56,338 nt of DNA from an uncultured Bacteroidota bacterium (lineage in GTDB: Bacteria; Bacteroidota; Bacteroidia; Flavobacteriales; Flavobacteriaceae): the NCBI GenBank assembly GCA_902608795.1, contig CACLPI010000007.1:1-56338 (forward strand). The letters run 5' to 3'. Below are positions 7,172 to 32,352 of this stretch, piece by piece. Numbering within the stretch: position 1 is the stretch's first letter; every line of letters begins with the position of its first letter. The notes under the pieces are model-generated. The model was not told the DNA's origin, searched no databases, and saw nothing but the letters and a program-made list of their open reading frames with translations. A program made the position numbers and the translations under genes.

Positions 7172-7210
7172 AAGAAAAAGCCTTTCTAAAATTAGAAAGG
7201 CTTTTTCTTT
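7171..7210 (-). terminator. Intrinsic terminator of the act-cox respiratory operon
   Basis: A perfect 19-bp inverted repeat (7171-7189 and 7192-7210) with a two-base centre follows the cytochrome oxidase subunit I stop codon by 15 bases. In the minus direction the AAAGGCTTTTT-type stem is followed by a T-rich stretch. The near-perfect symmetry means it could also stop transcription from the other side. It separates the respiratory operon from ruvB. Confidence 0.9.
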
Positions 7211-18725: not shown

Positions 18726-19151
18726 ATGCGAAAAATTATAATATTTTATACGATAATTTCATTGTCCTCAAATAGTTTATTTGGACAAAATGGAAATATA
18801 AAAATTAACCAAAGCAATAAACTTGATAGTATAATTAAATTAAAAAAAGAACTTAACTCGAAAATTCAAAACCTTAGAATTCAGATTTACAGTGGAGATA
18901 GAGATAATGCTGAACAAACAATACAAGAATTTATTGAGATATTTAATGGTACTTCAGCTGCCATAATATATGAAACTCCTAATTATAAAGTATGGGTTGG
19001 AAATTATTATACACAACTAGAAGCCGATAAAAGGCTTATTGAAATCAGAAAAAAATTTAGAAGTGCTTTTATTTTCAGACCTGAAATTCAAGAAATTTTT
19101 GAAGATGAAATTGACGAAAAATTAGATCAGGAAAAATTAATAATAAATTAG
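18726..19151 (+). CDS. SPOR domain-containing exported protein
   Basis: The 141-residue product has a cleavable signal peptide (MRKIIIF... ending FGQ near 21) and a C-terminal region with the pattern of flavobacterial SPOR-like proteins: [35 protein letters not shown] and [14 protein letters not shown] domains bind denuded peptidoglycan glycans, so a periplasmic cell-wall role is plausible, but the specific function is unknown. It is a single gene, divergent from actA, and its stop codon overlaps the infB stop codon on the other strand by four bases. Confidence 0.8.
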
Positions 19152-21712
19152 ATTTTTTTCTTTATTGCAACATTTATAAATCCTTCTATTTCATCTCCAA
19201 CTTTCACATCTTTGTAATCTGTAATTTGTAATCCACAATCATAGCCTTTAGTAACCTCTTTAACATCATCTTTAAACCTTTTTAAAGATGAGAGGGAACC
19301 TGTGTATATTACAACCCCTTCTCTTATTAGTCGGATTTCTGAATTCCTAACAATTTTTCCTTTGGTTACCATACATCCTGCAATAGTTCCAATCTTTGAA
19401 ATTTTATAAGTTTCTCTGACCTCGCATAGGCCAGTAATTTCTTCCTTAAAGTCGGGTGACAGCATACCTTCCATTGCATCTTTCACATCATTTATAGCAT
19501 CATAAATTATTGAATATGTTCTAATATCAATTTGTTCTTTTTCAGCAATTTGCCTTGCATTACCCATTGGTCGAACATTAAATCCTACAACAATAGCATC
19601 TGAGGCAGAAGCTAATAAAACATCACTTTCAGTAATTGCACCTACAGCCTTGTGAATAATATTAACTTGTATTTCTTCGGTTGATAATTTTTGTAATGAG
19701 TCTGTTAATGCTTCAACTGATCCATCAACATCTCCTTTTAAAATTATGTTTAATTCTTTAAATTCACCTAAAGCAATTCTTCTTCCAATTTCATCAAGGG
19801 TAATATGCTTTTGTGTTCTAACAGTTTGCTCGCGCTGAAGTTGCGTTCTTTTATTTGCGATTTGCTTAGCTTCTCTTTCGTCAGAAAAGACTGAAAATTT
19901 ATCTCCAGCTTGAGGAGCACCGTCTAAGCCCAAAATTGAAATTGGAGTAGATGGACCTGCTTCTTTAACCTCATTACCTCTTTCATCTTGCATAGCCTTA
20001 ACTTTTCCGCTATTTTTTCCAGCAAGTACAAAATCACCTATCTTAAGGGTGCCGGCCTGCACTAATACTGTTGAAATATATCCTCTGCCCTTATCTAAAA
20101 ATGCCTCAACTACAGTTCCAGTTGCATCCTTTTCTGGGTTCGCATTTAGTTCCAATAATTCTGCTTCTAAGAGGACTTTTTCCAGTAACTCATTTACACC
20201 ATCACCTTTCAAGGCAGATATATCATGAGATTGTATTTTTCCACCCCAGTCTTCAACAAGCAAATTCATATTTGAAAGAGACTCCTTAATCTTATCAGGA
20301 TTTGAATTTGGCTTATCAATCTTGTTAATTGCAAATACAATCGGAACAGATGCTGCCTGCGCGTGAGAAATAGCCTCCTTTGTTTGAGGCATTATATCAT
20401 CATCAGCTGCAATTACAATAATTACTAAATCCGTAACTTGAGCTCCTCTTGCTCTCATTGCAGTAAAAGCCTCATGGCCTGGAGTGTCTAAAAAGGTTAT
20501 TTTTTGACCGTCATGTAGAACAACTCCATAGGCGCCAATGTGCTGTGTTATACCACCAGACTCACCTGCAATTACATTTTCTTTTCTGATATAATCTAAT
20601 AGAGAGGTTTTTCCATGATCAACATGACCCATTACGGTTACAATCGGAGGTCTTGGTTTTAAATCTTCTGGAGAATCCTCAAGTTCAATATTTTCCTCCT
20701 CAATTTCTGCTGTTACAAAGTCGACCTTGAATCCAAATTCCTCAGCAACTATGGATAAAGTCTCTGCATCCAATCTTTGATTTAGCGTAACCATCATACC
20801 CAATGTCATACATGCTGAAATAATCTCGGTTGGAGAGATATCCATCATTGTAGCTATCTCATTTGCAGTTACAAATTCTGTTACTTTTAATATTTTACTT
20901 TCTTCTTCAAGAGCAGCTAATTCCTCTTCCGATTTTTGTTTATGCTGATCTCTTTTATCTTTTCTGTATTTAGCAGCTTTTCCCTTTGAAGTTTTACCTT
21001 GTAATTTTTCTAATGTCTCTTTAATCTGCTGCTGAACTTCTTCTTCACTGGGCTCTTCTTTTGAAGGTCTTTTGAATCTTTCTTTTTGTCTAGACTTTGT
21101 GCTTGATACATTATTTTGAAAAGAATCTTCCTGTTTAGAAACAATTCTTCTTCTTCTCTTCTTGGATTTAGTTGCTGGAGTTTCTGATTGTGTTTCTTTA
21201 AGCTTATTTAAATCAATTTTTTCACCTGTAGATGTTAGACCAGAAAGTTTTTTGTAATTATCCTTTTTTAAAGTTTCAGCAGTCTTATCATTTTTTTCTT
21301 GATTTGCTTTTTCAGAGTTGTTTCGATCTGCTTTTTCTGCAGCAACAGCTTTATCAACCTCTTTATCAGAACTGAGATCAATTTTACCAAGTTTTTTAAA
21401 TTGGACAACTTTTGAAGAAGCTTTAATGATTTCAGGCTTATTTTTATTAATATAATTTTCTTGTTCTTTTTCTTGCTTCTCTCTAATCTTTTCTTTCTCT
21501 TTATTTTTTGCTTCAACTACCTCTTTAGATGCAATTTTTTTATCTGCATCTATTTGGAATTCATCACATAATAAGTCAAATAAATCCTTAGAAATTTTAG
21601 TTGTGGGCCTTTTTTCAATTTTGTGACCCTTAGACTCTAAAAAATCTGCTACTCTATCAATCGATATATTTAACTCTCTAAGAACTTTATTTAATCTTAT
21701 TGTATCTGCCAT
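19148..21712 (-). CDS. infB: Translation initiation factor IF-2
   Basis: IF-2 is the GTPase that recruits initiator tRNA to the ribosome. The 854 residues start with an IF2_N domain ([17 protein letters not shown]), then a Lys/Glu-rich low-complexity linker (about 60-260), a second IF2_N-like segment, the GTPase domain with GHVDHGKTS (G1), [10 protein letters not shown] (G2), DTPGHEAF (G3) and NKIDKP (G4), and the C-terminal domains II-IV. It is the distal gene of the rimP-nusA-infB operon, 16 bases after nusA. Confidence 0.98.
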
Positions 21713-21728
21713 ATACAGCTATTAATTT

Positions 21729-22961
21729 TTAATCTTCAAATTCCTCTTTTAAAATTTTAAGAACATCATTGATGGTTTCCTCCTCCAAATCAGTTCTTTT
21801 TACCAAGTCTTCAGCATCTTGTTCTAAAACACTTTTAGCAGTATCAAGTCCAGCTTTTGCAAGCTCTTCAATAACCCATGCATCAATTTCATCAGAAAAT
21901 TCTGATAATTCAACATCTTCCTCAACACCTTCTCTAAATACATCAATTTCATAACCAGTTAGTTTTCCAGCCAATCGAATGTTATGCCCACCTCTTCCAA
22001 TAGCTTTGCTTACCTCTTCAGGATTAAGTATCACTTCAACCGTTTTATTATCTTCATTAATCTTCATTGAATTTAATCTTGCCGGATTTAGGGCTCTTGT
22101 GATGTACAATTGAAGATTATTTGTGTAGTTGATTACATCAATATTTTCATTTCCTAATTCCCTAACTATCCCATGAATTCTTGAACCTTTCATTCCAACA
22201 CATGCACCAACAGGATCAATTCTATCATCATATGAATCAACTGCCACTTTAGCCTTTTCACCAGGGATTCTAACAACTTTTTTAATTGTAATTAAACCAT
22301 CAAACACCTCTGGTATTTCCTGCTCAAATAATTTTTCTAAAAAAACTGGGGAAGTCCTAGACAAGATAATCGAAGGCTTTGTACCAATTAATTCAACGCT
22401 TTCAATTACCCCTCTTATATTATCTCCTTTTCTAAAAAAATCTGAGGGGATTTGTCTGTCTTTAGGCATAATAATTTCATTACCCTCGTCGTCTAACAAT
22501 ATTATAGCCTTGTGTCTAATATGATGAACTTCAGCAGTGTAAATTTCACCTTCTAGCTCTTTGAACTTTTTATATACATTAGTATTATCATGCTCATGAA
22601 TTTTAGAGGTTAGGTTTTGACGTAATGCTAATATAGCTCTTCTACCAAGATCGATTAATTTAACCTCCTCTGAAACATCTTCACCAACCTCAAAATCAGG
22701 TTCAATTTTTCTTGCTTCTGAAATTGCTATTTCAAGATTATCATCTTCAACATTATCATCTTCAACAACAATTCTGTTTCTCCAAATCTCTAAATCTCCC
22801 TTGTCAGGGTTAATGATTATATCAAAATTTTCATCATCCCCATACTTTCTTCTAAGGGCAGATCTAAATACTTCTTCTAAAATAGCCATAAGTGTTACCC
22901 TGTCAATAAACTTGTCATCCTTGAATTCCGAAAATGATTCAATAAGCGTTAAATTATCCAT
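21729..22961 (-). CDS. nusA: Transcription termination/antitermination factor NusA
   Basis: NusA binds RNA polymerase and nascent RNA and tunes pausing, intrinsic termination and antitermination. The 410 residues fit the Bacteroidota form: N-terminal polymerase-binding domain (about 1-130), S1 domain (about 135-200, GEIYTAEVHHI), and two KH domains (SRIHGIVRELGNENIDVI and GRGGHNIRLAGKLTGYEIDV), with a short helical tail instead of the two acidic repeats of E. coli. It starts three bases after rimP. Because the operon leader contains a terminator hairpin, NusA could act on its own transcript (inference). Confidence 0.97.
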   Translation of the reverse strand: MDNLTLIESFSEFKDDKFIDRVTLMAILEEVFRSALRRKYGDDENFDIIINPDKGDLEIWRNRIVVEDDNVEDDNLEIAISEARKIEPDFEVGEDVSEEVKLIDLGRRAILALRQNLTSKIHEHDNTNVYKKFKELEGEIYTAEVHHIRHKAIILLDDEGNEIIMPKDRQIPSDFFRKGDNIRGVIESVELIGTKPSIILSRTSPVFLEKLFEQEIPEVFDGLITIKKVVRIPGEKAKVAVDSYDDRIDPVGACVGMKGSRIHGIVRELGNENIDVINYTNNLQLYITRALNPARLNSMKINEDNKTVEVILNPEEVSKAIGRGGHNIRLAGKLTGYEIDVFREGVEEDVELSEFSDEIDAWVIEELAKAGLDTAKSVLEQDAEDLVKRTDLEEETINDVLKILKEEFED

Positions 22962-22964
22962 ATT

Positions 22965-23426
22965 TTAAAATTTTATTTTAACTTTTGCTTCTTTAATTTT
23001 ATCTAAATCAATATCCATTGATTTTTCCACAGTAATTTTACCTTTGCCAACCGGTTTTGGCTCCCTTACTTTCCAAACAATATTTATACACTTATCATTA
23101 GCTTCAGTTAATTTTCCTTCATATTTTTGATCAACAGTTTTAATTGTAAGGGTCCTTCCATAATGTTTAGAGTATTGGCGTGTATTTGTTAAAGGTGAAG
23201 AAGCTCCACATGAAGCTACCTGTAATGAAAAATCTATTTCATCACGGTCTATATTAGCTTCTATAGCTCTACTTATAAAAATGCAATCTTCAACTTTTAC
23301 ACCATTATCTCCATCAATAGTGACACTTATTTCATTGTTTTCAGTAATCGAAAAATCAATCAAAAAAAGGTCAGACCTTTGATCAAAACAATCGGCTAAT
23401 AATAAGTCTATTTTTTCTTTTAACAT
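22965..23426 (-). CDS. rimP: Ribosome maturation factor RimP
   Basis: RimP assists maturation of the 30S subunit. The 153-residue form starting at ATG 23426 (MLKEKIDLLL) has the family's usual length, with the N-terminal alpha/beta domain (LFLIDFSITENNEISVTIDG) and a C-terminal Sm-like domain. The open frame extends 33 codons upstream, including an in-frame ATG at 23462 whose codons would be made from the terminator-like hairpin; family length argues against these as the main start. rimP heads the rimP-nusA-infB operon. Confidence 0.93.
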   Translation of the reverse strand: MLKEKIDLLLADCFDQRSDLFLIDFSITENNEISVTIDGDNGVKVEDCIFISRAIEANIDRDEIDFSLQVASCGASSPLTNTRQYSKHYGRTLTIKTVDQKYEGKLTEANDKCINIVWKVREPKPVGKGKITVEKSMDIDLDKIKEAKVKIKF

Positions 23427-23432
23427 TTTTCT

Positions 23433-23460
23433 AAAAAAAGAGGGGACTCTTGGTCCCCTC
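23433..23460 (-). terminator. Terminator-like hairpin in the rimP leader (possible attenuator, or tRNA-Gln terminator)
   Basis: Read on the minus strand, GAGGGGAC and GTCCCCTC form a perfect 8-bp stem with loop CAAGA, directly followed by seven T residues (23439-23433). This is a textbook intrinsic terminator, very GC-rich for this genome. It lies six bases before the rimP start and downstream of a predicted promoter at 23486-23493, so it can act as an attenuator for rimP-nusA-infB; it also lies downstream of tRNA-Gln and may simply end that transcript. Confidence 0.85.
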
Positions 23461-23485
23461 ATAATATTATCATTAATCAGTTGCG

Positions 23486-23493
23486 CAAATATA
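23486..23493 (-). promoter_or_regulatory. Predicted promoter -7 element for rimP-nusA-infB
   Basis: The minus strand reads TATATTTG, a full match to TAnnTTTG, between the tRNA-Gln 3' end and the leader hairpin. The expected transcript start is about 23480, giving a leader of some 50 bases that contains the hairpin. No clear TTTG -33 box is visible at the usual distance. Confidence 0.5.
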
Positions 23494-23529
23494 CAATAAA
23501 ATATTTCATTAGCTAATATTTGCACCTAG

Positions 23530-23602
23530 TTGGCCTACTAGGGATCGAACCTAGACTCTTCTGGACCAAAACCAGACGTGTTGCCAGTTACACCATAGGC
23601 CA
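23530..23602 (-). tRNA. tRNA-Gln (anticodon UUG)
   Basis: The minus strand folds into a cloverleaf: acceptor stem TGGCCTA/TAGGCCA (7 bp), anticodon stem TCTGG/CCAGA with loop TTTTGGT, so the anticodon is TTG, and a T arm with GGTTCGATCC. Position 23530 is the discriminator A. The 3' CCA is not encoded. It stands alone, upstream of rimP on the same strand and divergent from the DUF2723 gene. Confidence 0.97.
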
Positions 23603-23694
23603 TTGAGGATGTAAATTTAAAATAAATTTTATTTCAATAATATATTTTCACTAATTATGTTTAATATTTAGACTTAAGAAGAATTTTTTATTAA

Positions 23695-23702
23695 TACATT
23701 TG
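23695..23702 (+). promoter_or_regulatory. Predicted promoter -7 element for the DUF2723 gene
   Basis: TACATTTG matches TAnnTTTG and ends 18 bases before the ATG at 23721. The last three bases are the TTG that opens the longest frame, which argues that this TTG is promoter sequence and not a start codon. Confidence 0.5.
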
Positions 23703-23720
23703 AGAAAATTTATTTTTGGG

Positions 23721-26700
23721 ATGAACGATAAAAAACTGAATTTAATTATTGGTTGGTTATGCTTTTTGATTTCATTTATCGTTTATTATCTAACCGCTGA
23801 GCCAACAGTTAGTTTTTGGGACACCGGTGAATATATAACCACATCCGCAAAACTACAGGTGGGACATCCGCCAGGAGCACCACTTTATCAAATGCTAGGT
23901 GCAATATTTTCGATTTTTGCTATCGAAAAAGAAAATATTGGTTTTACAATGAATTTAATGAGTGGCTTTGCAAGTGCATTGACAATTTCATTTATGTATT
24001 GGTCAATAGTACTGGTTTTAAAAAAACTTACCTCAGATATTAAAGACACAATTAAAAAACAATTGATGTTGTCTAGTTCTGCTTTTATTGGTTCAATTTC
24101 ATTTGCTTTTACTGACACGTTTTGGTTTAGTGCCGTTGAGACTGAGGTTTATGCTATGGCTACATTAATAATGGCAATTATGTTTTATTTAGGATTAAGG
24201 TGGGAAATTGATATGCATAAGGCCAGAGGGAATAAATGGTTGCTTTTGATCTGCTTTATTACAGGCCTGTCTTTTGGGGTTCATTTCATGGGGCTATTGG
24301 TAATCCCCACGATAGTAATGATTTACTACTTTAAAAATCAACAAGAAATTTTAAAATCGTTAAATCTAAAACCTTTTATTGGGTTTATAATTGCTAATGC
24401 CATTGGCATAGCAATCCTTATGGGCATCTTTAAGTTATTACTTCCAAATACCTTAAAATTTTTCAGTGCTACAGAACTTTTATTTGTAAATAATTTAGGG
24501 TTGCCATTTAATTCAGGAACACTGGCAGCTTTTATTTTCATTATCTATGTTTTTTATTTTTTGATAAATTACACAAGAAAAAAAGGTTTTGTTAATGCTA
24601 ATACGTTTACCCTTTGTTTTCTATTCATTTTTATTGGCTTTTCTTCATGGTTAATCTTACCAATACGTGCAAATGCAGATGTTGTAGTTAATGAAAACGA
24701 CCCTTCCAATGCAAGAGAACTTTTAGCTTACTATAATCTTGAACAATATCCAAAAACGTATCTTTTTTATGGCCCCTTATTTTCGGACCAATATTCAGGA
24801 TTGGATAAAAAGACACCTTACAAAGATGACAACCCTAAATATGAAAAAGATTTAATAAAAAAGAAATATGTTATTGTTAATGATTACAAGAACGCGGTCC
24901 AAAATTATAATTCTAAACATGCATCAATACTTCCAAGAATGTGGAGTACTGAACATGCTGAAAATTATTTGAACTACACTGGCTATCTTGATTTCAAAAT
25001 AAAACCTAGATACACGTCGGAGTCTGAACTGGTAGATTTTATAAAAGATTTTAAAGGAAAAATTAATAGTAATGAAATTGACTATGAGGACTTTCACAAT
25101 TTTCTAAGACAATATGGGCAATTTTTGGACATAGAAAAGCCATCTTTTATGAGCAATCTTAACTATTTATTTGATTATCAAATAGGATATATGTATTGGC
25201 GTTATTTTATGTGGAATTTTTCTGGACGCCAAGATGATATACAGGGTAAAATGGATATGCATGGCAATTGGATTAGTGGGATAAATTTTATTGACGAATG
25301 GAGTCTTGGAGTTTCACAAAAAAATCTACCAAAAGACGTAATTAATAACAAGGCTCGAAATACATATTTTTTGTTGCCTCTTTTGTTAGGTTTAATCGGA
25401 TTGTACTTTTTATATAACGCTGATAAAAAATATTTTTGGATACTAATCTTATTTTTTCTTTTTACTGGAATAGCAATTCAGGTTTACACTAATGTTAGGC
25501 CATTTGAACCAAGAGAAAGGGATTACTCAGTTGTTGGATCATTCTATGTTTTTTCAATAATTATTGGTTTGGGGGCATATTATATTGCAGATTTATTTGA
25601 AAAAATTAAAATCAAGGGGGCTGGAATTCTTTCTTTCATTTTATGTTTATTTTTTGTGCCTGTAAATTTAGCTATGAATAATTGGGATGACCATGACAGA
25701 AGTGATAGATATACAGCTTACGAAATGGCTGTAAATTATCTTGAGTCCTGTGATAAAAATGCAATATTATTTACTATTGGTGATAACGACACTTTCCCTC
25801 TATGGTATGCTCAAGAAATTGAAGGAATCCGAACCGACGTAAGGGTTGTTAATACAAGTCTTTTAAGTACTGACTGGTATATTAATCAAATGAAAAGAAA
25901 AGCTTATGAAAGTGATCCAATCCCTTCCAGTTTATCTGTTGACAAGTATAGGCATGGTACTAGGGATTACATCATTAAAGAAGAAATTAGTCAAGACACG
26001 GTTGATGTTAATGTGTTTATAGATTTTATTACTCAAGATGAAAAGGATTACAAATACGGAGAAATTCTTAAAAGGCAAGGTTATGATGTGGCGGGATTAA
26101 GAAGTCAAGACTATAATGCTAATTTCCTGCCAACAGAAAATGTTAGAATTCCTGTAAATATCGACAATGTTATTAATAATGGTATTGTTAGTGAAAAATA
26201 TTCAGAACTAATTGAAAAAGAAATATTTATCAAAATAAAATCACAGGCTTTATATAAGAACAGGCTTATTATGCTTGATATAATTGCAAATAATAATTGG
26301 GAAAGACCAATATACTTTACAGGTGGTGCTTTTGGTGATGAAGACTATTTGTGGATGAAAGATTTTCTGCAGCTTGATGGAATGTGCTACAAACTTGTTC
26401 CGATTAAAACCTTAGTCGATAGGTCAAACCCATACGAAATGGGAATGATAGATTCAGAAAAAATGTTTAGGATAGTTGATAAATGGAATTGGAATATTGA
26501 GAATGAAAAGAATATTTACTTTGACGTTGAGTCAAGAAAAAATAGCATCACATATAGAAGTAATATTTCAAGACTTACAAATCAATTGATTTTTGAAAAT
26601 AAACTACTTGAAGCAGAAAAAATTATAGATAATTGCATGAAAAAATTCCCAACAAATAAATTTGGGTATTATACTCTTTTAGAGCCATTTATTATTTCTT

Positions 26701-26945
26701 ATTACAAAATCGATAAAGAAGAAAAAGCTCGAAAATTATTCGATGAAATAGCTGAAAAATATCAGCAAAAACTGTTTTATTATAGCGGTTTAAATGATTC
26801 AAATAAAAATAGATACGCTGAGGAAATTTACACCGAAATTGAGAGATATAGATCTTTGGTTGATGTTATGATAAATTTTGAGCAAGGGGAATTTCTTGAG
26901 ACAAGAATGCAAGAATTTAACAACTATCTAGATTTATTTCTATAA
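23721..26945 (+). CDS. DUF2723 (TMEM260-like) multi-pass membrane protein, probable GT-C type glycosyltransferase
   Basis: This 1074-residue protein belongs to the DUF2723 family, which includes human TMEM260, reported to be a protein O-mannosyltransferase. The N-terminus carries the family signature EPTVSFWDTGEYI (about 27-39) in the loop after helix 1, with the acidic residues expected of a GT-C catalytic loop, followed by GHPPGAP. About eleven membrane helices alternate with loops, then a large soluble region with RDYSVVGSF and NAILFTIGDNDTFPLWY, and a helical TPR-like tail. The start is the ATG at 23721, since the TTG seven codons upstream overlaps a promoter element. A role in protein or surface glycosylation is inference. 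Confidence 0.85.
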   Translation: MNDKKLNLIIGWLCFLISFIVYYLTAEPTVSFWDTGEYITTSAKLQVGHPPGAPLYQMLGAIFSIFAIEKENIGFTMNLMSGFASALTISFMYWSIVLVLKKLTSDIKDTIKKQLMLSSSAFIGSISFAFTDTFWFSAVETEVYAMATLIMAIMFYLGLRWEIDMHKARGNKWLLLICFITGLSFGVHFMGLLVIPTIVMIYYFKNQQEILKSLNLKPFIGFIIANAIGIAILMGIFKLLLPNTLKFFSATELLFVNNLGLPFNSGTLAAFIFIIYVFYFLINYTRKKGFVNANTFTLCFLFIFIGFSSWLILPIRANADVVVNENDPSNARELLAYYNLEQYPKTYLFYGPLFSDQYSGLDKKTPYKDDNPKYEKDLIKKKYVIVNDYKNAVQNYNSKHASILPRMWSTEHAENYLNYTGYLDFKIKPRYTSESELVDFIKDFKGKINSNEIDYEDFHNFLRQYGQFLDIEKPSFMSNLNYLFDYQIGYMYWRYFMWNFSGRQDDIQGKMDMHGNWISGINFIDEWSLGVSQKNLPKDVINNKARNTYFLLPLLLGLIGLYFLYNADKKYFWILILFFLFTGIAIQVYTNVRPFEPRERDYSVVGSFYVFSIIIGLGAYYIADLFEKIKIKGAGILSFILCLFFVPVNLAMNNWDDHDRSDRYTAYEMAVNYLESCDKNAILFTIGDNDTFPLWYAQEIEGIRTDVRVVNTSLLSTDWYINQMKRKAYESDPIPSSLSVDKYRHGTRDYIIKEEISQDTVDVNVFIDFITQDEKDYKYGEILKRQGYDVAGLRSQDYNANFLPTENVRIPVNIDNVINNGIVSEKYSELIEKEIFIKIKSQALYKNRLIMLDIIANNNWERPIYFTGGAFGDEDYLWMKDFLQLDGMCYKLVPIKTLVDRSNPYEMGMIDSEKMFRIVDKWNWNIENEKNIYFDVESRKNSITYRSNISRLTNQLIFENKLLEAEKIIDNCMKKFPTNKFGYYTLLEPFIISYYKIDKEEKARKLFDEIAEKYQQKLFYYSGLNDSNKNRYAEEIYTEIERYRSLVDVMINFEQGEFLETRMQEFNNYLDLFL

Positions 26946-27006
26946 AGATAGAAAATTCATCTATTTTATTTATTTTAGAAAATATATTAACTAACCTAAT
27001 TTAATC

Positions 27007-28650
27007 ATGAAAAATCAAAATAATTCCGCATTATTTACATTAATAACCGTGTTTTTCTTTTGGGGGTTTTTTGGAGCATCAAACGGTGTTTTTATCCCAT
27101 TTTGTAAAACATATTTTCAAATTGATCAATTTCAAGCTCAGCTAGTCGAATTTGCATTTTATGGAGCGTATTTTATCGGTGCTTTGATATTATTTGTTTG
27201 GTCAAGCTATTCAAAAAAGGATATTCTCAATAATTGGGGGTACAAAAAAGGAATTATTTATGGATTGATTATTTCAATTTTTGGTGCATTGATAATGTAT
27301 CCTTCCGTAAATGGTGCTGAACAAGGAGATACACAAGTGTTTTATTATGTGCTAATTGCATTATTTATCATTGGATTAGGATTCTCTCTTCAGCAAACGG
27401 CTGCAAATCCATTTGCCGTATCACTTGGAGACCCTTCAACTGGTTCCAATAGGCTTAATTTAGCGGGTGGTGTTAATTCTTTTGGAACTGCAATAGGACC
27501 GATTTTAATTGCTTTTGTTTTATTTGGTTCGGCTTCAGAAGTAGATTGGGACATTATTGAATTGAGTTCAGTTCAAGGTTTGTATATTGCTGTTGCTATA
27601 GCATTTTTATTAGTTGCAGGATTTTTCTACGTTTCAAAGAATCTTCCTGATGCAAAAAATGATGAATCTTTTGAATCTGCCTCAAAAGCTAAAACAATGC
27701 TTATTATAATGACTGTTATAATGACATTATGCTTTGGTTGGATTTTTTATTCATACACACCTGCATTTGAAAATAGTCCCATTGAAGACTTAGAAATAAC
27801 TAGATTAATCTTAACCATTTTTTGTCTTTTATCTGTTTTTGCACTAATATTTATAGCAAATTCATCAGCAAATAAAAATTCTGTAGGTTGGGGAGCCTTA
27901 AAATACCCTCAACTAGCTTGGGGTATGCTTGCGATTTTTACTTATGTTGGGGTAGAAGTAACAATCCAAAGTAATCTTGGGGAGCTTTTAAAAGCTGATA
28001 TTGGTGAAGGACTAAATGCTATTGGACTGCCAGTTCTTGATGAAGCTCAAAGCGCAAAATATATTGCATTGTATTGGGGTGGATTAATGATAGGTAGATG
28101 GACTGGTTCGATTGGTGCTTTTGATATTTCTGAATCCTTAAAAAAAATACTATTATTCATAACACCATTTATCGCATTTGGAGTTGTAATAGCTGTAAAC
28201 GCGTTCAGCAATCCACTTACAATTTCTGAGATAGGTATATTTTCTCTTTTAATTGTAATACAAATTTTTGGTTTTTATTTGGCAAAAGATAATGCACTCA
28301 AAATTATGGCAATATTTAGTCTTCTTGGAGTTATTGCTATGCTTGTAGGAATATTTGGGTCTGGTGAAATTGCTCTTTTTGCGTTTTTAACAGGAGGTTT
28401 ATTTTGCTCAATTATGTGGCCATGTATTTTCTCATTAAGTATTACAGGACTAGGAAAGTATACTTCACAAGGTTCATCTTTTTTGGTAATGATGATATTA
28501 GGTGGTGCAATAATCCCTCCACTTCAGGGAAAACTTGCTGATATTTTTGGAATAATAACATCTTATTGGGTAGCTGTAATTTGCTTTGTTTTCCTATTGT
28601 TTTATTCTGTAACAACAAAACAAATTTTATCTAAACAAAAATTAATTTAA
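27007..28650 (+). CDS. Sugar MFS transporter (fucose/glucose/galactose/GlcNAc permease family)
   Basis: The 547-residue protein is a major facilitator of the FucP/GluP/NagP type, sugar:proton or sugar:sodium symporters of the inner membrane. Family features visible are FFFWGFFGASNGVFIPF in helix 1, QLVEFAFYGAYFIGAL in helix 2, and GFSLQQTAANPFAVSLGDPSTGSNRLNLAGGVNSFG, written here in full only as far as helix 4/5 landmarks. It is longer than E. coli FucP by about 100 residues, with extra segments in the C-terminal half. It is separated by three bases from a glycosylasparaginase gene, so GlcNAc released from glycopeptides is an attractive substrate (inference). No clear promoter or terminator is visible in the 61-base gap before it. 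Confidence 0.85.
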   Translation: MKNQNNSALFTLITVFFFWGFFGASNGVFIPFCKTYFQIDQFQAQLVEFAFYGAYFIGALILFVWSSYSKKDILNNWGYKKGIIYGLIISIFGALIMYPSVNGAEQGDTQVFYYVLIALFIIGLGFSLQQTAANPFAVSLGDPSTGSNRLNLAGGVNSFGTAIGPILIAFVLFGSASEVDWDIIELSSVQGLYIAVAIAFLLVAGFFYVSKNLPDAKNDESFESASKAKTMLIIMTVIMTLCFGWIFYSYTPAFENSPIEDLEITRLILTIFCLLSVFALIFIANSSANKNSVGWGALKYPQLAWGMLAIFTYVGVEVTIQSNLGELLKADIGEGLNAIGLPVLDEAQSAKYIALYWGGLMIGRWTGSIGAFDISESLKKILLFITPFIAFGVVIAVNAFSNPLTISEIGIFSLLIVIQIFGFYLAKDNALKIMAIFSLLGVIAMLVGIFGSGEIALFAFLTGGLFCSIMWPCIFSLSITGLGKYTSQGSSFLVMMILGGAIIPPLQGKLADIFGIITSYWVAVICFVFLLFYSVTTKQILSKQKLI

Positions 28651-28653
28651 AAA

Positions 28654-29625
28654 ATGAACAGAAGAAGTTTTATAAAAAGATCGGGGGTCGCTTCACTTGG
28701 AATTGGACTCAACATCAATAAAACTTTTTCTAATTCTGTAAAACAAACAAATAAACCAGTTGTAGTTGCAACATGGGATGTAAAAAATGCAACCAAAAAA
28801 GCATGGGAAATTTTATCCACTAATGGAAACTCCCTGGATGCGGTAGAACAAGGTTGCAGAATTGAAGAAGCAAATGAAGACGGCCAGTCAGTTGGAATCG
28901 GCGGACTTCCAGATCGTGAAGGAAATGTAACCCTTGATGCTTGTATTATGGATTACATGGGGAATTGCGGATCAGTTGTCTATTTAAAAGATATAAAGCA
29001 TGCAATTTCTGTTGCACGTTTGGTAATGGAGAAAACTCCACATGTAATGTTAGCAGGAGATGGGGCTAAAAAGTATGCTTTATCGATGGGTTTTAATGAG
29101 GAAAATCTTTTAACTGAAAAGTCCAAAAAAGATTGGATCAAGTGGAAAAAAGAAGAAGAATATAAGCCTATTATTAATATTGAAAATCATGATACAATTG
29201 GCATGTTGGCGATGGATGAAAAACAAAATATTAGTGGGGCGTGTACAACAAGTGGATTGGCTTATAAAATGCAGGGGCGAGTTGGTGATTCTCCAATTAT
29301 TGGCTCGGGTTTATTTATTGATAATGAAATCGGGGGGGCAGTAGCTACTGGTTTAGGTGAAGAAGTAATAAAAACAGTAGGTAGTTTTCTTGTTGTCGAA
29401 TTAATGAGGCAAGGATATTCTCCTGATGAAGCTTGTAAAATTGCAATTGAAAGAATTGTGAAAAAACCAAGAAGTAATTATAAAAATTTTCAAGTCGGAT
29501 ATGTTGCTATGAATAAAATGGGTCAAAGTGGATCATACTCAATTCAAAAAGGTTTTAGTATGACACGATTCGATAATAATGGAAATATAAATCTTGATTC
29601 CCAATACTACCATAAACAGGGATAA
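28654..29625 (+). CDS. N4-(beta-N-acetylglucosaminyl)-L-asparaginase (glycosylasparaginase)
   Basis: The enzyme hydrolyses the bond between GlcNAc and asparagine in the remains of N-glycoproteins. It is an Ntn hydrolase that self-cleaves to expose a threonine nucleophile; here the cleavage site is HD-T181 in NHDTIGML, and the substrate-binding Arg and Asp lie in GRVGDSPIIG (209-212). The 323-residue length is normal. The N-terminus has a twin-arginine-like signal (NRRSFIKR, then a short hydrophobic stretch), so export to the periplasm is likely. It follows the sugar transporter by three bases, and polA starts directly after its stop codon. Confidence 0.9.
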   Translation: MNRRSFIKRSGVASLGIGLNINKTFSNSVKQTNKPVVVATWDVKNATKKAWEILSTNGNSLDAVEQGCRIEEANEDGQSVGIGGLPDREGNVTLDACIMDYMGNCGSVVYLKDIKHAISVARLVMEKTPHVMLAGDGAKKYALSMGFNEENLLTEKSKKDWIKWKKEEEYKPIINIENHDTIGMLAMDEKQNISGACTTSGLAYKMQGRVGDSPIIGSGLFIDNEIGGAVATGLGEEVIKTVGSFLVVELMRQGYSPDEACKIAIERIVKKPRSNYKNFQVGYVAMNKMGQSGSYSIQKGFSMTRFDNNGNINLDSQYYHKQG

Positions 29626-32352
29626 ATGGATAAAAAAAAACGTTTATTTTTAATAGATGCATATGCTTTAATATTTCGTGGATATTATGCATTCATTAAA
29701 AACCCTAGGGTTAACTCAAAGGGTGTAGATACTTCAGCTATTTTAGGTTTTACTAATTCACTTTTTGATGTTATAAAAAGAGAGAAGCCTGATTATTTAG
29801 CCGTATGTTTTGATAAAGGTGGAAGTCAAGATAGAATCAAAATATTTGACCAATATAAAGCCAACAGAGATGAAACGCCTGAGGCCATCAAAATTGCAGT
29901 ACCAATTATTGAAAAGATCTTAAAATCACTCAATATTTCGATTTTGATAAAAGAGGGCTACGAGGCTGATGATATCATTGGTACTATTGCAAAAAAAGTA
30001 AAGTCTAAACAATTTGACACTTACATGGTTACCCCAGATAAAGATTTTGCACAACTAGTTGACGAATCAATTTTTATGTATAGACCTGTTTTTGGAGGTG
30101 GTTATGAAACATGGGGCATTAATGAAGTATTGGAAAAATTTGAGATTTCAAACACATCTCAGGTTATTGATTTTTTGGCAATGAAAGGTGATTCAGTAGA
30201 CAATATTCCTGGGCTTCCAGGTGTTGGGGATAAGACCGCCAAAAAATTTATTAAAGAATTTGGTTCTATTGAAGAGCTTTTAAGAAATACCTCTGTGTTG
30301 AAGGGCAAATTAAAAGAGAAAATTGAACAAAATAAAGATTTGGGAATTCTTTCAAAAAAATTAGCAACAATAATTACGGATGTCCCAATTGAATTTGAAA
30401 TAGAAGACTTAAAACTCAACGTCGATAAATTAGATGAAACGAAAAAAATATTTGAAGATTTAGAATTCAGAAGACTTTTTAATTCACTGGACACTATTTT
30501 TTCTAAAAATAACGTTGACATAAAAAATGAATCAGAAAATTTAACACAGGAGACAAAGGCTGAAGTTACTCCTGGTTTTGGTCAATTTAACTTATTTGAG
30601 GACAATGGTAACAGTCATAATATGGACAAATATGATATTATCTACCAAAATATTCAGTCCGACATGTCTGCAAAATTATTTCTACAGAAAATAGAAATGC
30701 GAAAAGAGATTAGTTATAATATTTCAATTGAAAAGTCAGAAAATTCTGATCTAATTTTAGAATCCATTTCTTTCTCTTGGGATAGTAATATTTCCTATGT
30801 GATCAAAAACGATTTTAAAAAATTTGAAGCTTTACTGAAGAAAATTTTTGAAAATCAGAATATTTCAAAAATATCTAATGACCTAAAGCAAGACATTAAA
30901 TTATTAGCTCAAAAAAATATAAGAATCTTAGGAGATATTTTTGATGTTAAGCTCGCTCATTATTTGATTAATCCTGATATTAGTCATGATTTTATAAGTA
31001 TTTCCAATAACTATCTGAATTTATCAATCATAAAGAAAATAAAAGAATTATTCAATTATGAAATTTCTTGTCTTGCCTACCGACTTAAACCACTCCTTAT
31101 GTCTGATTTGGTAAAATTTCATCAGCTAGAACTTTATAATAATATTGAAATCCCTCTGCTAAAAACTCTTGCTTTAATGGAAACAGAGGGAATTAACTTG
31201 GATGTAAAGTTTTTAAAGAATTTTTCAAAAAGAACAACAGAAGAATTAGGGAAGATAACAAAAAAAATATTTGAATTATCTGGTGAAGAATTTAATATTT
31301 CATCACCCAAACAATTAGGTGAAATTTTGTTTGAAAAAATGAAAATAAGTGACAAGCCAAAGAAGACCAAAACTGGCCAGTACTCAACATCTGAGGAAAC
31401 CTTAACAGAACTAGCATCAAAAAATGACATTGTAAAATTGGTTTTAGAGCATAGAAGTATTTCTAAATTACTTAATACTTACATTGATTCACTTCCTAAA
31501 CAGCTGGATAAATCAACGAATAGAATTCATACTGAATATGTCCAAACAGTTGCCTCAACCGGAAGACTAAGTAGTATAAATCCTAATCTTCAAAATATTC
31601 CAATTAGAACATCTAGAGGAAAAGAAATCAGAAAAGCATTCATAGCTAAGAACAAGGACTATTTTTTAATGGCTGCTGATTATTCACAAATAGAATTAAG
31701 GATCATAGCTTCATTGAGTGAAGAAGAGAATATGATAAATGCTTTTAAGAATAAAGAAGATATTCATTCATCAACAGCATCAGCTGTTTTTAATGTTCCC
31801 ATAAGTATGGTGACCAAAGAGCAAAGATCGAATGCTAAAGTTGTAAATTTTGGTATTATATATGGTGTATCTGCATTTGGGCTAAGTAATCAAACTAATC
31901 TGAACAGAAGGGAGTCTAAAGAATTAATTGAAAAGTATTTTGAAAAATACCCTAAGCTAAAGCATTACATGAATAATCAAATTTCATTTGCAAGAGATAA
32001 TGGGTATGTTGAAACAATTTTGGGAAGAAGGAGGTACTTAAAAGATATAAATTCACAAAATAGCATAGTTAGAGGTGCTGCAGAAAGAAATGCTATTAAT
32101 GCCCCAATTCAGGGTAGTGCTGCAGATATTATCAAAATAGCAATGATAAATATTCAAAATAAGTTAAGTAGCGGCAACTACAGAAGTAAAATGTTGTTAC
32201 AAGTACATGATGAATTAGTTTTTGACGTATTTAAACCAGAGCTAAATGAGATCATCAATTTGACCAGAAATGAAATGGAGCAAGCATATAAAATAAATGT
32301 ACCACTAACAGTTGACCTAAATTATGGTCTAAACTGGCTTGAAGCACACTAG
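29626..32352 (+). CDS. polA: DNA polymerase I (3'-5' exonuclease domain apparently inactive)
   Basis: PolA fills gaps and removes RNA primers. The 908 residues show an intact 5' nuclease domain (about 1-290: YKANRDETPE, EADDIIGT, TPDKDFAQL, GDSVDNIPG) and an intact polymerase domain (about 520-908: motif A DYSQIELR, motif B RSNAKVVNFGIIYG, motif C VHDE). The middle region (about 335-500) aligns with the proofreading domain but lacks the DxE of motif I (the matching stretch reads ISYNISIE) and the YxxxD of motif III; only an N/D pair resembling motif II (NDLKQD) remains. It abuts the glycosylasparaginase gene with no spacer. Confidence 0.96.
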   Translation: MDKKKRLFLIDAYALIFRGYYAFIKNPRVNSKGVDTSAILGFTNSLFDVIKREKPDYLAVCFDKGGSQDRIKIFDQYKANRDETPEAIKIAVPIIEKILKSLNISILIKEGYEADDIIGTIAKKVKSKQFDTYMVTPDKDFAQLVDESIFMYRPVFGGGYETWGINEVLEKFEISNTSQVIDFLAMKGDSVDNIPGLPGVGDKTAKKFIKEFGSIEELLRNTSVLKGKLKEKIEQNKDLGILSKKLATIITDVPIEFEIEDLKLNVDKLDETKKIFEDLEFRRLFNSLDTIFSKNNVDIKNESENLTQETKAEVTPGFGQFNLFEDNGNSHNMDKYDIIYQNIQSDMSAKLFLQKIEMRKEISYNISIEKSENSDLILESISFSWDSNISYVIKNDFKKFEALLKKIFENQNISKISNDLKQDIKLLAQKNIRILGDIFDVKLAHYLINPDISHDFISISNNYLNLSIIKKIKELFNYEISCLAYRLKPLLMSDLVKFHQLELYNNIEIPLLKTLALMETEGINLDVKFLKNFSKRTTEELGKITKKIFELSGEEFNISSPKQLGEILFEKMKISDKPKKTKTGQYSTSEETLTELASKNDIVKLVLEHRSISKLLNTYIDSLPKQLDKSTNRIHTEYVQTVASTGRLSSINPNLQNIPIRTSRGKEIRKAFIAKNKDYFLMAADYSQIELRIIASLSEEENMINAFKNKEDIHSSTASAVFNVPISMVTKEQRSNAKVVNFGIIYGVSAFGLSNQTNLNRRESKELIEKYFEKYPKLKHYMNNQISFARDNGYVETILGRRRYLKDINSQNSIVRGAAERNAINAPIQGSAADIIKIAMINIQNKLSSGNYRSKMLLQVHDELVFDVFKPELNEIINLTRNEMEQAYKINVPLTVDLNYGLNWLEAH

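Follow-up and report, generated by a model that had tools for sequence, protein, structure and literature searches.

In the genome of an uncultured member of the Flavobacteriaceae, a short hairpin followed by U residues lies between a tRNA-Gln gene and the rimP-nusA-infB operon. This locus raises the question whether the hairpin simply ends the tRNA transcript or belongs to the operon as a regulatory leader and, if so, which factor it responds to. The stretch analysed (56,338 nt of contig CACLPI010000007.1, assembly GCA_902608795.1; hereafter the window) carries all the features concerned on the minus strand. A promoter -7 box, TATATTTG, of the TAnnTTTG type (23486-23493) places the expected transcription start at 23479-23482. 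The terminator stem-loop GAGGGGAC-CAAGA-GTCCCCTC (23440-23460), supported by terminator scan, fold, covariance model and covariation, lies 25 nt from the box. Its perfect 8-bp GC-rich stem is followed by a U7 tract (23433-23439), where termination would be predicted around +47 to +50. The six bases AGAAAA separate this tract from the rimP ATG (23426), which is 13 nt from the stem. rimP (22965-23426) matches PF02576 over the cut-off. It is followed by nusA (21729-22961), assigned from its open reading frame and from comparison with relatives and apparently the gene that the element tracks, and downstream of nusA by the frame 19148-21712, which from its resemblance we take to be infB. The tRNA-Gln(ttg) gene (23529-23602, identified by a tRNA match) ends 68 nt upstream of the hairpin and probably shares it as its terminator. 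An earlier note on this DNA had described the box, the 8-bp stem, the U7 tract and the six-base gap to the rimP ATG, all of which are confirmed. The ATG that it placed at 23462 is also present (23460-23462), at the stem, in frame and 12 codons upstream of the rimP start.

The expected leader, 49 nt long, has a folding energy of -15.5 kcal/mol (z -3.1), a value equalled by one of 200 dinucleotide shuffles. A plain scan of positions 20000-30000 found 6 terminator-like sites for 4.9 expected. Since this number is not above chance, the hairpin was tested by comparison with relatives, and the strength of the case comes from its conserved position relative to control windows, its uniqueness and its covariation. 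Elsewhere in the window, a strong two-way terminator, AAAAGCCTTTCTA/TAGAAAGGCTTTT, occurs at 7175-7205. It is of an A-tract type that differs from the rimP leader and is common among the listed gene-end terminators.

Leaders were compared at 190 loci: 66 from the same class, 25 from other classes of the phylum, 20 from held-out genomes of the order (chosen for genus diversity among the matches listed, before the leaders were inspected) and 79 from named Flavobacteriaceae. Two loci whose contig ends within rimP (L004 and L175) and two copies of the window (L031 and L032) were dropped. Under a strict criterion, a leader terminator precedes rimP in 182 of the 190 loci, counting in four pairs that share a leader (L002/L174, L005/L006, L017/L180 and L018/L228), against 5/186 control windows located 715-900 nt upstream and 12/187 located 415-600 nt upstream. 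By set, in the order given above, the leader counts are 63/66, 22/25, 19/20 and 78/79, against 0/64, 0/25, 1/20 and 4/77 for the distant controls and 3/65, 4/25, 1/20 and 4/77 for the nearer ones. The place of the hairpin relative to rimP, on which the earlier note proposed that its reading be checked, is kept, and these 182 loci support its view that the rimP-nusA-infB operon has a terminator in its leader, a candidate premature-termination attenuator. Among the strict misses, three have a long-loop AAGGC...GCCTT form (L063, L065 and L160), one has a ten-base loop (L070) and in one (L204) 180 nt separate hairpin and start; no clear terminator match was found at three other-class loci (L046, L053 and L058). 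With a looser criterion the leader terminator is present in 66/66 class loci. nusA is present in 61 of the 62 loci L001-L062 (two of them the window copies), the exception, L034, being at a contig end. As read from these sequences, the element appears to occupy the leader position of a NusA-encoding operon.

Among 60 relatives, 46 of which have a detected RimP, the pattern GGGGACN{3,7}GTCCCCTCTTT occurs in 32 genomes, in single copy each, and all 32 copies adjoin rimP, on the same strand and 9-60 nt 5' of the RimP match. A covariance model seeded with 25 loci chosen for their 5-nt loop, the window itself included, scores 48.3 bits at the window hairpin and at most 18.7 bits elsewhere in 456 kb of its own genome.

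Covariation of the stem was counted on a model-fitted alignment because MAFFT alignments misplaced stems with unequal loops. Model searches took 65 of the 66 class loci (L006, whose leader is the same as that of L005, was left out), and 48 of these 65 were kept at E<=0.0009, a cut set to keep reverse-strand palindrome matches out. In these 48 leaders (43 distinct), 99.7% of the cells are paired and two-sided changes occur in 5 of the 8 pairs, on an alignment that favours the structure, while pairing falls to 56-77% in partner-slid controls. The compensatory changes that had been suggested as a check are therefore found, and they include a flip from G-C to C-G. In the 79 named loci, stem pair 4 is GC in 64, AU in 6, CG in 6 and GU in 3, as counted on ungapped stems with a search pattern presupposing most of the core. 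Within the class the 5' arm carries GGG in 62/66 loci and CCC in one (L082), and the core is mostly GGGGAC/GTCCCC. Among the other-class loci (L033-L062), C exceeds G in the 5' arm of 12 of 24 picked hairpins, a few of which may not be the leader hairpin; examples of such C-rich 5' arms are TCGCCC...GGGCGA and AAAGTCCCGC...GCGGGACTTT. Across the phylum sample, the place of the terminator is therefore kept, but not the polarity of its stem. Such unfixed polarity does not appear to fit a single sequence-reading protein acting phylum-wide, though the GGGGAC core is strongly kept within the class.

TAnnTTTG, which was mapped as the -7 box in F. psychrophilum (PMC9723704), is located 9-31 nt 5' of the hairpin in 66/66 class loci and 20-30 nt 5' of it in 78 of the 79 named loci (median 28, sd 1.4 nt), the tight spacing in the latter partly reflecting the kinship of close Flavobacteriaceae. 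In the named loci the distance from hairpin to start ranges from 10 to 180 nt (sd 31.9). In the class set, the sd is 4.7 nt for the promoter-hairpin distance (66 loci) versus 16.9 for the hairpin-ATG distance (62 loci with an assigned start). Promoter and terminator would therefore seem to move as one unit. Six leaders (L199, L204, L206, L207, L223 and L224), four of them from Arenibacter records, have the hairpin 110-180 nt from the start (132 nt in L207) and a promoter-hairpin distance still of 27-29 nt.

Genomes in which rimP is undetected indicate which gene of the operon the element follows. PF02576 gave nothing, even at E<=1, in G024, G041, G045, G047, G051 and G054, and nothing at E<=0.1 in G254 and G269; in G166, G217 and G252 it gave only matches below the cut-off, in open frames of 229, 1082 and 487 amino acids. 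With the exception of G051, these genomes (ten, from six families and of 1.4-4.6 Mb) carry a hairpin and U tract 20-148 nt 5' of nusA. Several of them are incomplete (86-95%), and rimP might lie elsewhere in these, not between hairpin and nusA. The hairpin thus precedes nusA in 10/10 readable genomes without detectable rimP. The strict criterion retrieves 9/10, versus 0/18 full-length upstream controls (the control windows of L169, empty or short, are excluded from the 18); the exception, G166 (locus L140), has a shorter stem spotted by eye. TAnnTTTG is found 9-32 nt before the hairpin in nine of these loci and TATATTCG, one letter off, in G024. infB lies downstream of nusA in these genomes too, and nusA can therefore not be separated from infB. 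Since the hairpin stands before nusA where rimP is undetected, the element follows nusA(-infB) rather than rimP. Two genomes as small as those of endosymbionts, G051 and G290, have nusA without the hairpin; the loci concerned are L131 (0.3 Mb) and L170 (0.6 Mb), and no rimP match was found in either genome.

The ten genomes come from the matches listed, which leaves out 46 other genomes without RimP and several of those listed. Set aside among RimP-less genomes were G004, G008, G009, G014, G017, G019, G020, G023, G039, G206 and G278, together with seven genomes with nusA at contig base 1, on the grounds that nusA is missing, its start is cut or upstream sequence is lacking; in G017 the contig end truncates rimP, and in G301 rimP is full of N. 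In one rimP-less family (L139, L140 and L141), NusA seems to carry a short basic stretch, e.g. MARRKAKHKI, ahead of its usual N-terminus.

The simplest reading, and the one to which the earlier note gave its due, is that the hairpin is an ordinary intrinsic terminator of the tRNA-Gln transcript. In the genus of the window no other terminator lies between tRNA-Gln and rimP (14/14 loci), and the tRNA may well use the hairpin; 5 of the 10 rimP-less loci likewise have tRNA-Gln upstream. However, a TAnnTTTG box stands between the tRNA and the hairpin in all 14 genus loci, and the restriction to tRNA neighbourhoods that the earlier note named as the mark of an ordinary tRNA terminator is not seen: a tRNA lies within 300 nt at 17/66 class loci, while the other 49 have none and keep both hairpin and promoter box. 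Where tRNA-Gln is more distant (105-285 nt 5' of the hairpin), 12 of 14 loci, L018 and L228 being the same, have a separate terminator 0-10 nt behind the tRNA, besides the promoter box and the leader hairpin, the exceptions being L210 and L248. Moreover, of 14 further tRNAs encoded in the window or in 400 kb of its own genome, three are directly followed by a hairpin that passes the criterion, all at 5-6 nt. As a sole function across relatives, tRNA termination is refuted by these sequence comparisons, and we regard it as highly improbable for the hairpin in general. What may stand is a second use in the genus of the window: given the short spacing and the leader hairpin being the only terminator found (14/14 loci), this hairpin probably terminates the upstream tRNA-Gln transcript as well. 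In the rimP-less loci, tRNA-Gln lies 72-88 nt before the hairpin in G024, G041, G054, G254 and G269, where the tRNA-terminator reading remains open, and no tRNA was found in those of G045, G047, G166, G217 and G252 (three families). The presence of tRNA-Gln before the nusA leader in five genomes without detectable rimP (L126, L128, L129, L162 and L169) indicates that this neighbourhood is old within the order. The element could alternatively respond to translation, through the ATG at 23462, in frame and starting at the stem, or through a leader peptide. Such coupling to translation of the 12-codon extension, as had been suggested, is not borne out: an ATG in frame with rimP, within the hairpin or 5' of it, occurs in just 7/14 genus loci, 13/62 class loci (those with an assignable start, four of the 66 being unscored) and 9/73 named loci scored, and it is missing, out of frame or interrupted by a stop in the remaining 7/14 genus and 49/62 class loci. 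In addition, the expected start and the hairpin are only ~20 nt apart, which leaves no room for a leader peptide, and none was found in the leaders. Pairing between the upstream leader and the 5' arm, as an antiterminator would require, has a mean score of 5.7, against 6.4 for shuffled sequences and 23.2 for the terminator stem, and reaches p<=0.05 in only 2/66 class leaders, which is not above shuffles. A leader-peptide attenuator was rejected on these three counts, and translation-coupled attenuation in either form is extremely unlikely.

Two further explanations retain the leader terminator and do without NusA sensing. That the leader responds to RimP, or to 30S assembly, rather than to NusA would agree with the position of the element directly before rimP in most genomes, and RimP feedback was raised as a possibility by Naville and Gautheret (PMC2965389). 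The ten genomes from six families that carry the element before nusA without a detectable rimP argue against it, and we hold this reading to be very unlikely. Alternatively, the hairpin could be a fixed, unregulated partial terminator that gives a constant low level of the operon relative to the promoter. The lack of a sensor domain and of an antiterminator, a leader of merely ~20 nt before the hairpin and the steady promoter-terminator spacing would all be expected in this case. However, a weaker promoter would give the same result, fixed attenuation leaves unexplained why the hairpin tracks the gene for a termination factor, and NusA feedback has precedents in B. subtilis (PMC12288461) and E. 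coli (PMC6511841). A fixed terminator is accordingly rather unlikely, though it deserves to be kept in mind.

We thus favour NusA feedback. With a terminator-like hairpin that is conserved, covaries, keeps its distance from the promoter and stands before nusA where rimP is undetected, the element is probably a promoter-linked attenuator of the (rimP-)nusA-infB operon, through which we infer that NusA regulates its own synthesis by stimulating premature termination. A conserved stop before nusA, with or without rimP, suggests that the cell measures its own NusA. With no antiterminator found, no room for a peptide and no conserved ATG, the leader is left as a bare terminator whose efficiency in vivo may be set by a factor, for which NusA appears to be the best candidate. 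NusA stimulates intrinsic termination, and Mondal et al. in 2016 reportedly described an attenuator without antiterminator in the B. subtilis nusA leader. Transcription would start at TATATTTG and within ~50 nt cross a strong hairpin and U tract before the first gene, where part of the RNA polymerase would terminate. When plentiful, NusA would join the polymerase, aid hairpin formation and raise termination; when it is scarce, more readthrough would occur and more NusA be made. In B. subtilis, nusA is autoregulated via NusA-stimulated termination in its own leader, and NusA dependence is tied to weak hairpins and interrupted U tracts (PMC12288461). The window stem is strong and its own U tract unbroken, which speaks against NusA dependence, whereas all 58 named leaders with a canonical stem carry a base other than U among the first six of the tract (UUUUUAUA in 45 of them), which speaks for it. 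With the element standing before nusA in genomes without detectable rimP, the earlier suggestion that NusA is the factor sensed now has stronger support than before. A bolder version would be a minimal NusA sensor controlling the nusA operon throughout the phylum: promoter and terminator would make up a single unit following nusA and not rimP, the terminator at ~+47 would read free NusA early in elongation, during the sigma/NusA exchange, and all that counts would be the presence and position of the hairpin, whatever its sequence or G/C polarity. We put this forward as speculation that has some chance of being right but more of being wrong.

Comparison with databases places the element near a known family. 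Rfam at gathering score returned only two tRNAs over the window. RF01770 (rimP; cut-off 47 bits) gave no match in the window, nor at E<=10 in 23300-23650, and scored over the cut-off in 0/21 relatives, with sub-cut-off matches only among those listed. A STnc290 candidate, at 25 bits for a cut-off of 60, looks like chance. In 2010, Naville and Gautheret ranked the rimP-leader first among transcription attenuators in ubiquity, weighed RimP and NusA as regulators and favoured NusA (PMC2965389). The rimP-leader shares with the present element a terminator hairpin with a U stretch and, within the class of the window, mostly a G-rich 5' arm and a C-rich 3' arm, a location 4-130 nt before the rimP start, and the lack of a visible antiterminator in its general form (PMC2965389). 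The window falls within this range (13 nt), while L204 (180) and L207 (132) exceed it. The core of the rimP-leader is GGGc/gCCC, whereas here it is mostly GGGGAC/GTCCCC, with reversed polarity in half of the out-of-class picks; moreover, the present element also stands before nusA where rimP is undetected. The main text of that paper does not name Bacteroidetes, Bacteroides, Flavobacterium, Porphyromonas, Gramella or Cytophaga. A structured 5' element upstream of rimP was described in F. psychrophilum in 2021; it is reported to recur in further genera of the Flavobacteriaceae and to have no Rfam match (PMC9723704). By our reading it concerns the same family and the same gene, and it is very probably the present element. 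It has one mention in the main text, which gives no mechanism, nusA link or reach beyond the family (PMC9723704).

The same operon in B. subtilis likewise has an intrinsic terminator in its 5' nusA leader (PMC12288461), which is 180 nt long (quoted in PMC2965389) versus the ~50 nt expected here. In E. coli, where NusA regulates its own expression, the metY-rimP-nusA-infB operon resembles the window in having a tRNA, an internal promoter P2 and two terminators, t1 and t2, upstream of rimP, and differs from it by another tRNA and by several promoters (PMC6511841). Unlike that of the window, its leader is processed by RNase III (site in PMC5371410).

The kind of attenuator is therefore already known, from the rimP-leader of 2010 and from the F. 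psychrophilum rimP 5' element of 2021. New here are its reach over the phylum, the fixed promoter distance and the evidence from rimP loss; the parts of the literature covered by the search hold no report of the element before nusA without rimP, of a fixed promoter distance or of such reach. The choice between RimP and NusA as effector was left to be shown in 2010, and the rimP-less genomes speak for NusA (or IF2). It is a very small element, single-copy in the genomes searched and closely linked to its promoter. If the NusA reading is true, the feedback of B. subtilis and E. coli would extend to a phylum whose promoters and translation signals differ from theirs. A further leader-type terminator, GGTCTCGA-aatt-TCGAGACT followed by U8, is located in the same genome (L120, contig 17, around 1459, plus strand) directly 5' of a gene. 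This gene presumably encodes a prephenate dehydratase (pheA), as its sequence reads. In F. psychrophilum, a 5' element before pheA appears in the list of PMC9723704.
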